From: Olsenella sp. An188
Lineage (GTDB): Bacteria; Actinomycetota; Coriobacteriia; Coriobacteriales; Atopobiaceae
Assembly (NCBI RefSeq): GCF_002160255.1
Contig: NZ_NFKF01000005.1
Coordinates: 1 to 64,000 of the forward strand
Direction of reading: 5' to 3'
Length of the DNA stretch: 64,000 bases
Shown: positions 1-48,065 of the stretch, in pieces
Layout of the letters: every line of letters starts with the position of its first letter
How positions within the stretch are numbered: position 1 is the stretch's first letter
Notes under the pieces: model-generated
What the model saw: only the letters and a program-made list of their open reading frames with translations
Database searches by the model: none
What the model was told of the DNA's origin: nothing
Translations under genes and position numbers: made by a program

Positions 1-52
1 CGGACGCTTTTCTCGGCCGAACCGTCCGCAACCTGCACGCACCTCGCCGTCT
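1..52. repeat. partial copy of the 61-bp hairpin repeat (family A)
   Basis: The core GTCCGCAACCTGCAC lies at about 24-38 in the gap downstream of the ABC exporter operon. The same core recurs at 5314, 5375 and five times between 22266 and 22527. Only part of one unit is visible because the window begins here. Confidence 0.7.
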
Positions 53-5268: not shown

Positions 5269-5280
5269 CGCGCCGCGGGA

Positions 5281-5400
5281 CGTGCGGCTTCCGGTCGTTC
5301 TTCTCGGCTGAACCGTCCGCAACCTGCACGTGCGAGAAGAACGTGCGGCTTCCGGTCGCTTCGGCCCGCGAAACCGTCCGCAACCTGCACGTGTTTCTCG
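5281..5400. repeat. two copies of the 61-bp hairpin repeat (family A)
   Basis: Two units with core ACCGTCCGCAACCTGCACGTG begin at 5312 and 5373, exactly 61 bp apart, each paired with the arm ACGTGCGGCTTCCGGTCG. The arms of one unit can fold on each other as an imperfect hairpin. They fill most of the gap between the response regulator gene and pyrG. The last copy runs into TTTCTCGCC. Confidence 0.8.
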
Positions 5401-5407
5401 CCCGTAA

Positions 5408-21119: not shown

Positions 21120-22247
21120 ATGGCCGAGAGGAACCTCGAGGTCGCCATCGCTGCCGGCGGAACCGCCGGCCACATCAACCCCGCGCTCGCCCTCGCGGAG
21201 GAGCTGCGCGAGCGCGGTCACCACGTGCGCTTCTTCGGGCAGACGGCCAAGCTCGAGGGGCGCCTCGTCCCCGAGGCCGGCTTCGAGCTGGTCCCGGTCG
21301 TCGTGAGCGGCTTCGACCGCTCGCGTCCCTGGACGCTCGCGAGCTCGCTCGTGCGCATGCGGCGCGCGCAGGGCGAGATCCGCGCGCTCTTCTCGCGCGA
21401 GGGCGCCCCCGACGTTGCCGTGGGCTTCGGCGCCTACGTGGAGATGGCTCTGCTCAACTGCTGCCACCGCCTCGGCGTGCCCTACGTGCTCCACGAGCAG
21501 AACTCGGTGCCGGGCCTGGCCAACAAGGCGCTCGCGCCCCACGCCGCCGCCGTGTGCATCTCGGTGCCGGCCGCCCGCGCCGTCTTCGAGCGCGAGGGGC
21601 GGCCCGCGCCCCGGGTGGAGCTCACCGGCAACCCCGTGCGCAGGAGCGTCGTCACGGCGAGCCGCGAGGCGGGCCGCGCCGCGCTCGGCGTGGGCGAGGG
21701 GCAGACGGTGCTGCTCGTCTTCGGCGGCTCGCTCGGGGCGGCCCACATCAACGAGGGAGTCGCGCGCCTGAAGGGGGAGCTGCTCTCGCGCGAGGGGCTC
21801 GTCGTGGTCCAGTCCACGGGCGCCGAGGGGTTCGACGAGGCCGTGGCGGCCCTCGCGCTCACGCCAGAGCAGGAGCGCCGCTGGAAGGTGCTGCCCTACA
21901 TCTCGGGGATGGGGGAGGCGCTCGCGGCCGCCGACCTCGTGGTGAGCCGCGCCGGGGCCTCCTCGATCGCAGAGATCGCCGCCCTCGCGGTGCCGAGCCT
22001 GCTCGTCCCGTACCCCCACGCCACGGCGGACCACCAGACCACCAACGCGCGCTTCCTCACCGACGCCGGCGCCGCCGTGCTCGTGCCCGACGACAGGATC
22101 GATTCCCCCGAGTTCGAGGACGCCCTGCTCGGCCTGCTCGACGACCCCGCCCGCCGCGACGAGATGCGCGCCGCCGCCCGCGGGCTCGGCGGCAGCGACG
22201 CCGCCGCCGCGCTCGCCGACGAGGTGGAGGCCGCCGCCCGCCGGTAG
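21120..22247 (+). CDS. murG: lipid II synthase (UDP-GlcNAc transferase) MurG
   Basis: MurG adds GlcNAc to lipid I at the inner face of the membrane. The 375-residue GT-B enzyme starts with the glycine-rich loop AAGGTAGHINPALALAEEL. It also has GFGAYVEMAL, HEQNSVPG and the C-terminal UDP-binding motifs (VVSRAGASSIAEI, PYPHATADHQTTNA). The SD GGAGGCAGG precedes the ATG. Downstream comes the 61-bp repeat array, which splits the cluster before murC. Confidence 0.96.
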   Translation: MAERNLEVAIAAGGTAGHINPALALAEELRERGHHVRFFGQTAKLEGRLVPEAGFELVPVVVSGFDRSRPWTLASSLVRMRRAQGEIRALFSREGAPDVAVGFGAYVEMALLNCCHRLGVPYVLHEQNSVPGLANKALAPHAAAVCISVPAARAVFEREGRPAPRVELTGNPVRRSVVTASREAGRAALGVGEGQTVLLVFGGSLGAAHINEGVARLKGELLSREGLVVVQSTGAEGFDEAVAALALTPEQERRWKVLPYISGMGEALAAADLVVSRAGASSIAEIAALAVPSLLVPYPHATADHQTTNARFLTDAGAAVLVPDDRIDSPEFEDALLGLLDDPARRDEMRAAARGLGGSDAAAALADEVEAAARR

Positions 22248-22261
22248 GGGCGCTCCGGCCG

Positions 22262-22545
22262 CCAGAACGTCCGCAACCTGCACACTTCGGATTCACGTGC
22301 AGTTTCTGGACGGTTTGGCCGAGAAGAACGTCCGCAACCTGCATGTTCGAGAAGAACGCGCAGGTTCCGGTCGGATTGACCCGCCAGAACGTCCGTAACC
22401 TGCACGTGCCCGGAATGCGTGCAGCTTCTGGTCGGTCCGCGTCCCGAAACCGTCCGCAACCTGCACGTGCCGGGCTCACGTGCAGCTTCCGGTTGCTTTG
22501 GTCGAGAAGAACGTCCGCAACCTGCACGTTCTTCTCGCCCATGTG
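22262..22545. repeat. tandem array of 61-bp hairpin repeats (family A)
   Basis: Five cores of AACGTCCGCAACCTGCAC begin at 22266, 22327, 22388, 22449 and 22510, exactly 61 bp apart each time. In each full unit the core is followed by its imperfect reverse complement (CACGTGCAGCTTCCGG), giving a hairpin of about 16 bp with a short loop. A variable 12-base spacer then often ends in GAGAAG. The last unit is truncated by CTTCTCGCC. The array fills most of the 420-bp gap between murG and murC. Confidence 0.9.
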
Positions 22546-22668
22546 GCCTCCGGACGCCCTCGGCCCCGGACCGCCCACGGCTCGCGGGGGTTTTGGGGAG
22601 TCCGTGCCCACCGCGCCCAATTGGGATAGAGTAGGGTGTCACGGAAAACCCCGTCGAAAGCGGCTCCC

Positions 22669-24099
22669 ATGCCTGACAAGAGCACCGAGATAGCGAACGT
22701 CACAAGCGCCCACTTCATTGGCATCGGCGGCGCCGGCATGAGCGGCATCGCCCTGGTCCTGCACGAGCGCGGCTGCCACGTCACCGGAAGCGACCTCAAG
22801 AGCTCCCACTACGTGCGCGAGCTCGAGGCGGCGGGCATCGACGTCACCGTGGGCCACGACGCGGCGACGATAGACGCCGCCTCTCCGCAGGTCGTGGTGA
22901 CCTCCACCGCCATCCCCGAGACCAACCCCGAGGTCGTGCGGGCCCGCGAGCTCGGCATCCCCATCTGGCCGCGCGCCAAGATGCTCAGCTACCTCTCGGG
23001 CTCGCAGCGCACCGTGGCGGTGGCCGGCACGCACGGCAAGACCACCACGTCCTCGATGGTGGCCACGATGCTCGACAAGATGGGCCTCGACCCCTCCTTC
23101 CTCATCGGCGGCGTGGTGGAGGGCTACGACACCAACGGCCGCAACGGGTCGGGCGAGCACTTCGTCTGCGAGGCGGACGAGTCCGACGGCTCCTTCCTCT
23201 ACCTCAACCCGAGCGTGGTGGTCGTCACCAACATCGAGGCCGACCACCTCGACCACTACGGCACGCTCGAGAACATCGAGAGGACCTTCTGCACCTTCAT
23301 GGGCCTCGTCGGCGAGAAGGGCACGGTCGTCGTGAACGGCGACGTGCCGCACGTGGTCGAGCTCGCGCGCTCCACGGGGCGCCGCGTCGTCACCTACGGC
23401 TTTGACCCCTCGTGCGACTACGTGTGCCTGCCCGAGGACGCCCACCACGCCCTCGCCAGCAACTTCTCGGTCACCTGCCGCCCGGGCGCCGGCGAGAGGA
23501 GCGTGCACGTGACCATCGCCGCCAACCCCGGCCGCCACAACATGGCCAACGCGACCGCCGCCGTCGCCGTGGCCGACGTGCTCGGCCTCGACCTCGACGC
23601 CGCCGCGGCCGCGCTCTCGCAGTTCAAGGGCGCCCGCCGCCGCTTCACCCACGTGGGCGACGTCGCGGGCGTCACCGTGGTGGACGACTACGGCCACCAC
23701 CCCACCGAGATCTCCGTCACGCTCGCCGCGGCGGCCGACCTGCCCTTCGAGCGCATCGTCTGCGTCTTCCAGCCGCACCGCTACAGCCGCACCCAGGCGC
23801 TCGCCGAGGAGTTCGGCACCGCCTTCGACAGCGCCGACGTCCTGCGCGTCATGGACGTGTTCTCCGCCGGCGAGATGCCGATCCCGGGGGTCTCGGGCAA
23901 GACGGTCGTGAGCTCGGTGCGCGAGCGCGGGAGCGTGGCCGACGTGGCCTTCGTCCCCAACCGCCGCGCCCTCATCGACGAGCTTTGCGACATCTGCCGT
24001 CCCGGCGACCTGCTCATCACGCAGGGGGCCGGCGACGTGACGAGCGTCGGCCCCGCCTTCGTCGAGGCGATGCGCGAGCGCGAGGGGCGCGACTCGTGA
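22669..24099 (+). CDS. murC: UDP-MurNAc--L-alanine ligase
   Basis: MurC adds L-alanine to UDP-MurNAc. The 476 residues include the N-terminal IGIGGAGMSGIA, the ATP loop VAGTHGKTTTSSM near residue 117, EADESDGSF and DDYGHHPTEI. I chose the ATG at 22669; a GTG at 22636 is in frame but lies on the probable transcription start below a TAGAGT box (22627-22632). A separate promoter here fits the break in the cluster caused by the repeat array. The stop overlaps the murB start as GTGA. Confidence 0.95.
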   Translation: MPDKSTEIANVTSAHFIGIGGAGMSGIALVLHERGCHVTGSDLKSSHYVRELEAAGIDVTVGHDAATIDAASPQVVVTSTAIPETNPEVVRARELGIPIWPRAKMLSYLSGSQRTVAVAGTHGKTTTSSMVATMLDKMGLDPSFLIGGVVEGYDTNGRNGSGEHFVCEADESDGSFLYLNPSVVVVTNIEADHLDHYGTLENIERTFCTFMGLVGEKGTVVVNGDVPHVVELARSTGRRVVTYGFDPSCDYVCLPEDAHHALASNFSVTCRPGAGERSVHVTIAANPGRHNMANATAAVAVADVLGLDLDAAAAALSQFKGARRRFTHVGDVAGVTVVDDYGHHPTEISVTLAAAADLPFERIVCVFQPHRYSRTQALAEEFGTAFDSADVLRVMDVFSAGEMPIPGVSGKTVVSSVRERGSVADVAFVPNRRALIDELCDICRPGDLLITQGAGDVTSVGPAFVEAMREREGRDS

Positions 24100-41038: not shown

Positions 41039-41062
41039 TTTTGCCTTCTCAATTGCATATGT

Positions 41063-41139
41063 GGCCCGTTCGTCTAGCGGTTCAGGACGCCGCCCTCTCA
41101 AGGCGGAGATCACCAGTTCGAATCTGGTACGGGCTACCA
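41063..41139 (+). tRNA. tRNA-Glu (anticodon CTC), copy 1
   Basis: Acceptor GGCCCGT pairs with ACGGGCT, the anticodon stem CCGCC/GGCGG encloses CTCTCAA with anticodon CTC, and the T arm is CCAGTTCGAATCTGG. CCA is encoded. It is identical to the copy 80 bp downstream. Confidence 0.95.
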
Positions 41140-41142
41140 TTT

Positions 41143-41219
41143 GGCCCGTTCGTCTAGCGGTTCAGGACGCCGCCCTCTCAAGGCGGAGATCACCAGTTCG
41201 AATCTGGTACGGGCTACCA
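41143..41219 (+). tRNA. tRNA-Glu (anticodon CTC), copy 2
   Basis: Identical to copy 1 over the whole 77 bases including CCA, at an offset of exactly 80 bp, so it arose by recent tandem duplication or is kept identical by gene conversion. The GAG codon it reads is very common in this GC-rich window. Confidence 0.95.
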
Positions 41220-47813: not shown

Positions 47814-48025
47814 CCGCACGGCAACCGCGAGCCCGGAATCGGCGGCGACTGCGACGGTGATGCCCAGTCGTGGCCCGTGATGAGCCTGGAATCCGCCGTG
47901 GCTGCGACGCGATCGCCCTGATTTCGTCGCAACCATGGCCGATTTTGGGCTCGCGCCCGGCGAGTCCGTCGCAACCATGGCCGATTTTGGGCTCGCGCCC
48001 GGCGAGTCCGTCGCAACCGAGCGGG
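47814..48025. repeat. 42-bp direct repeats with inverted relatives (family D)
   Basis: Two exact 42-bp units begin GTCGCAACCATGGCCGATTT at 47926 and 47968, with a third start (GTCGCAACC) at 48010. Upstream, near 47829-47860 and 47885-47909, are degenerate copies in the opposite orientation (GGAATCGGCGGCGACTGCGAC). The set could form several alternative hairpins. It fills the 336-bp gap between gltX and the YhgE-type gene; no gene is seen there. Confidence 0.8.
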
Positions 48026-48065
48026 TTTCTCGGCTCCACCGGCACCGCGCGTCGCCCGCGCGGCC

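Follow-up and report, generated by a model that had tools for sequence, protein, structure and literature searches.

Introduction

RAYT transposases are the usual explanation for repeats of the REP/BIME kind. Binding of gyrase, IHF or Pol I is a trait of BIMEs, and a role for a topology enzyme was proposed for those of E. coli. In E. coli and Xanthomonas, BIMEs are regularly spaced, alternating, extragenic and clustered repeats. RAYT-associated REPs are extragenic and of high copy number, carry a GTAG or GT(A/G)G head and accompany a RAYT gene flanked by cognate repeats. The CGTC-tagged REPs, reported from Proteobacteria, Chlorobi, Bacteroidetes, Spirochaetes and Thermotogae, are composed of 8–9-bp stems, 4–5-nt loops and a CCA-like tail and occur mostly as HH dimers (Di Nocera 2013, PMC3733652). 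The heterodimer preference in other REP families was explained as a way to avoid SbcCD, which cleaves perfect palindromes (PMC3733652).

Here, an array between murG and murC of Olsenella sp. An188 and its relatives are compared with these systems. The arrays are a BIME/REP-like family without RAYT. Like BIMEs, they are regularly spaced, alternating, extragenic and clustered. In contrast to BIMEs, they have no GTAG head, no RAYT and an exact 61-bp register, their sequence changes in concert between species, and their 22-bp arms are not stable stem-loops singly. With the RAYT-associated REPs they share the extragenic location and the high copy number; neither a GTAG or GT(A/G)G head nor a RAYT gene flanked by cognate repeats was found. 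With the CGTC-tagged REPs (PMC3733652) they share the CGTC motif at one end, sites behind genes or between convergent ORFs with no dedicated transposase, and the preference for heterodimers, whose facing units are mismatched. They differ from them in having long arms in tandem arrays, and their units lack the 8–9-bp stem, the 4–5-nt loop and the unpaired tail. Therefore, layout and location fit the REP/BIME kind while the RAYT link and the stem structure do not, and the family is a variant of that kind. The neisserial mosaic elements (dRS3/RS) and inverted uptake-sequence pairs likewise place a short word beside intergenic mosaic repeats (PMC3733652 and general knowledge), but they differ in sequence from the arrays and the word described here. 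The literature searched held nothing relevant on repeats in Olsenella.

Results

Layout of the murG–murC array

The window is the whole stretch of 64,000 nucleotides analysed (contig NZ_NFKF01000005.1, positions 1 to 64,000). Its relevant features are as follows.

1..46, no strand: margin of a further array, cut by the end of the contig (C12:1) and in reverse overlap with C15:1-109
5280..5403 (also given as 5280-5392), no strand: four-arm array belonging to this family; its neighbours are a response-regulator-like gene and pyrG
21120..22247, + strand: murG
22264..22535, no strand: 61-bp alternating array with nine clear 22-bp arms, between murG and murC
22264..22285, + strand: arm 1 of this array; further + arms start at 22325, 22386, 22447 and 22508
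22295..22316, - strand: arm 2, inverted; further - arms start at 22356, 22417 and 22478
22527..22539, - strand: cap, the dispersed word GGCGAGAAGAACG (CGTTCTTCTCGCC when read on the + strand); ACG is common to the cap and the last arm
about 22539-22560, - strand: tenth, decayed arm
22620..22640, + strand: block ATTGGGATAGAGTAGGGTGTC conserved in congeners, seen by eye, upstream of murC and downstream of the array
22669..24099, + strand: murC

The initial annotation had described five cores with a strict 61-bp step, each followed by its own imperfect complement. The core starts (22266, 22327, 22388, 22449 and 22510) are indeed exactly 61 bp apart, and inverted arms were found between the + arms, so that the orientation chain is + - + - + - + - +. 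The 18-mer given as the core is exact in two of the five and has one mismatch in the other three. With up to three mismatches, the core occurs ten times in the window against 0.07 expected from shuffles, and TRF called the 61-bp array at 22259-22529. The repeat unit consists of a 22-bp arm, AAANCGTCCGNAACCTGCACGT, a 9-bp spacer, the inverted 22-bp arm and an 8-bp spacer. The arm consensus was drawn from 164 arms. The arms carry the motif CG[T/A]C (C 94%, G 99%, T 77% or A 22%, C 99%). The array begins 16 bp past the stop codon of murG and stops short of the conserved block at 22620..22640, which is probably a promoter. A CRISPR array, suggested by 29+32=61 as in type I-E, was rejected since the arms alternate and the spacers are only 8–9 bp.

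Distribution in the genome and relation to genes

BLAST gave 63 array matches in the genome (2.14 Mb, 16 contigs), and GTCCGNAACCTGCACGT with up to two mismatches matched 118 times against once in the reversed control. About 30 arrays were found, with nearly all arms intergenic. The two units noted before pyrG (5312 and 5373) are real and, together with their inverted arms, form a four-arm array. The fragment that opens the window is a contig edge: positions 1-109 are identical to the reverse complement of C15:1-109 (L030:1-109). This exact inverse overlap of the ends of C12 and C15 indicates that another array, or DNA next to it, interrupted the assembly at this point. The arrays at L022:4855-5040 and L022:8067-8252, 3.2 kb apart, are near copies with like spacers; their likeness ends near the array ends, which suggests array-to-array copying. 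The window holds two other repeats, a 42-bp tandem repeat at 47925-48036 (CGTCGCAACC...GGCGAGTC), with a closely similar 42-bp repeat in G006 (L133:19644-19738), and a perfect 80-bp tandem duplication at 41062-41219 that resembles a tRNA gene plus spacer and has counterparts in congeners.

Gaps of at least 60 bp in the genome stretches read, with genes taken from codon-model calls rather than curated annotation, were classified by gene orientation. Array-bearing gaps were tandem in 16 cases, convergent in nine and divergent in two, against 48, 12 and 24 for array-free gaps (convergent versus divergent, p=0.006). Of the 16 arrays in tandem gaps, 13 lay closer to the upstream gene's 3' end than to the next start (p=0.02); the median distances were 26 bp to that end and 107 bp to the next start. 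This bias could merely reflect purifying selection against insertion in promoters.

Spacing

Unconstrained clustering, in which no period was assumed, gave intervals of 26 and 35 bp between 17-bp cores, nearly without exception, at about 30 own and 20 congener loci; the congeners showing it were G008, G010, G014 and G021. Successive arms are set 30 and 31 bp apart, close to three turns of the helix. On the other hand, spacer identity is 0.34–0.35 against 0.26–0.31 expected from composition, which is near random. Spacers that are near random in sequence yet constant in length require a cause for the constancy.

Arrays in relatives

Arm counts above background were 118 in the own genome, 91 in G008 and 38 in G010, and were weaker in G014 and G028. 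The arrays of G008 and G010 share both family and spacing with the own ones. Olsenella sp. An293 was the only named record that matched the array end pattern. The murG–murC gap was read in 25 genomes, the own one and 24 congeners. In G008, this gap holds an array that belongs to the same family. G012 and G018 have 61-bp arrays of a different sequence, GTCGCGAANGCCCCGC, and G028, G013 and G014 have 61–62-bp repeats of a third sequence. The repeats are 31 bp long in G003, G005 and G023 and 41 bp long in G006, where a forward run is followed by an inverted run. No array was visible in the short gaps of G026, G002, G020, G017, G004, G025, G010, G021, G029 and G019. The proposal that the array controls murC–ftsZ expression is thus unsupported: about ten congeners are array-free at this site, others carry arrays of unrelated sequence, and the conserved block before murC is situated downstream of the array.

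Elsewhere in six congeners (samples of 20–200 kb), array families were found with periods mostly of 30–31, 40–41 or 61–62 bp or multiples, while an intergenic scan of the 140 kb sampled from G026 called no 30-, 41- or 61–62-bp array. Further intergenic families with periods of 30–31, 41 and 61–62 bp were seen at L110, L116 (G005), L130 (G012), L135, L136 and L138 (G006) and L139 (G029), often as forward copies followed by inverted copies. Several 61-bp families have the inner part AARSCGTC in common and, judged by this motif, are probably related. Since the period classes are also few, they do not prove helical phasing independently.

Orthology of array positions was assigned from the flanking DNA with the arrays masked. 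By position, six of 11 G008 arrays and four of five G010 arrays are orthologous to own arrays, and this share (10/16) implies that most arrays are old at their sites. Since some loci are array-free in congeners, none of the arrays is essential by itself. Arm identity was 0.751 between own loci, 0.792 within G008, 0.744 between both species and 0.734 at orthologous loci, and arm position 10 is mostly T in the own genome but C in 83% of arms in G008 and in 100% in G010. Orthologous arrays are thus no more alike than non-orthologous ones, which indicates concerted evolution within each genome while the sites are kept. An exact long-palindrome pattern, a narrow test of viral origin, had no match in viral contigs.

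The dispersed word at the array ends

Among 29 arrays, the word found at the end of the murG–murC array stands at 12 left and 16 right ends, mostly in one register, against 4% at random. The capping word, GSCGAGAAGNNC, is genus-wide and uptake-sequence-like. As an asymmetric word, G[G/C]CGAGAAGNNC, it is scattered across the genomes of the genus, with hundreds of copies in each, over both strands and in genes as well as intergenic DNA; copies in the window lie, for example, at 53, 22527, 39233, 43476 and 48168. The form GGCGAGAAGAAC has 358 copies in the own genome and 11–506 in each of 30 congeners, while other genera of the order have mostly 0–5 and a few family members 21–61. In coding DNA, GGCGAGAAGNNC occurs 73 times in antisense against 3.5 after synonymous shuffling and 56 times in sense against 28.7; five congeners show this pattern too, with no strand bias. 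Words that differ from the 9-mer by one letter mostly occur about as often as expected. By its distribution, the word may be likened to the uptake sequences of Neisseria and Haemophilus. ComEC is present throughout the order; however, an N_methyl pilin had no match in the genus, which leaves the uptake reading without a receptor candidate. Chi or KOPS is unlikely since strand bias is lacking. The papers searched held nothing relevant on the word and no such word from Actinomycetota. If it were proven to be an uptake or marking sequence, it would be of a sort described, in the literature found, only in Pasteurellaceae and Neisseriaceae.

Discussion

The reading that we favour, tentatively and with rather less than even confidence, is a phased binding platform, that is, helically phased sites for a putative factor at the ends of transcription units. 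The 22-bp sites alternate every 30 and 31 bp, so that successive sites would look towards almost the same side of the helix. A sequence-specific DNA-binding factor or a topology enzyme may assemble on them behind transcription units and, once assembled, might insulate, help to end transcription or absorb supercoils. The arrays would lengthen and shorten through tandem duplication of the 61-bp heterodimer. Their loci are kept between species while the sequence changes genome-wide, a change that may come from tracking of the factor or from gene conversion. This reading is favoured because of the exact spacing of about three turns, the independence from pairing and the concerted change of site sequence. 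The bias to 3' ends, the loci shared with G008 and G010 and the greater likeness of same-orientation neighbours also speak for it. Against it, the spacing could persist because units are copied whole, the 3'-end bias could stem from selection at promoters, the period classes give no independent proof, and no one array is essential.

An RNA-level element, with hairpins that would terminate transcription or shield the upstream mRNA at its 3' end, ranks second after the phased platform and is considered unlikely. The strand folds strongly at murG–murC (z -7.2), the arrays directly follow stop codons or lie between convergent genes, and a T-rich cap is found at arm ends. The strong fold is expected of any inverted-repeat array. 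Single arms fold weakly (-0.3 to -6 kcal/mol, short stems). The initial annotation had stated that the arms often vary with matching changes; in fact, facing arms match less than chance. Their agreement is 0.722 against 0.746–0.750 for dealt-out arms, and standard pairs including G-U make up 80.1%, below the 82.1% of shuffles (z -4.5). The arm positions at which mismatches are preferred are -2, 1, 5 and 8. Facing strand-coherent pyrimidine mismatches are suggested by some arrays but are inconsistent between arrays, and only one of eight symmetric spacer pairs is clearly above chance. With three tests negative, covariation was rejected as evidence for RNA hairpins. A scan of 21900-22900 for a G+C-rich stem-loop followed by a T run found no intrinsic terminator, and an Rfam scan of window positions 1-30000 gave zero matches above the gathering score. 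Besides, a hairpin needs neither exact spacer lengths nor similar arms at different loci.

A mobile REP family, moved in trans by a RAYT or another transposase that has since been lost here, is improbable. The many similar dispersed copies, the single 39-bp units with the flanking word GGCGAGAAGAACG and the RAYT-type genes in 28 of 31 genus members (one to six copies each) would agree with it. Such genes are missing from the own genome, in which no Y1_Tnp/RAYT gene (PF01797) was found, and from G005 and G026. Twenty congener RAYT loci (L154–L173) were read and encode mostly RAYT-like proteins of 230–320 aa; L155 resembles an IS200-type transposase and L163 gave an unrelated frame. Many of these genes are flanked by palindromes such as CGTGCAAAAGGGACAGGCACTTTTGCACG or ATTGGGGACAGTCCCCAAT, of the GGGACAG/CTGTCCC type at recurring sites, but array arms (up to two mismatches) lie beside none of the 20, those of G008 with the same array family included. 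RAYT was therefore rejected as the mover of the family. The conserved array positions and the lack of a GTAG head also speak against it. The suggestion of a mobile REP-type family is accordingly supported as to the dispersed, extragenic and alternating arrangement behind genes, but not as to mobility, since most arrays appear to be old at their sites.

A functionless minisatellite, kept by tandem duplication and interlocus gene conversion, is given an equally low probability. Neighbouring arms of the same orientation, one period apart, have an identity of 0.796, above that of facing arms, as is predicted by tandem duplication of a mismatched 61-bp heterodimer; the two near-copy arrays and the homogenisation within genomes also point this way. 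However, spacer lengths are fixed despite near-random spacer sequence, the 3'-end positions are conserved in other species, and arrays of other sequence with like periods occupy the same gap. An array without further copies and without covariation had been taken in advance as a local tandem duplication; the many copies bear the initial annotation out, while the absent covariation counts against it.

A wider proposal, to which we assign just as little probability, is a lineage-specific recognition system of the genus in which fast-changing DNA-binding factors would act on helically phased target arrays at fixed gene-end loci. The arrays would track the factor as eukaryotic PRDM9 or satellite targets do, and GSCGAGAAGNNC, which marks the borders, may belong to it.

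In this BIME-like family without RAYT, positions and spacing are kept while the sequence is replaced in concert. Where the repeats stand and how they are spaced can thus be separated from which letters they carry, and this separation makes the choice between a binding platform and a selfish hairpin testable.
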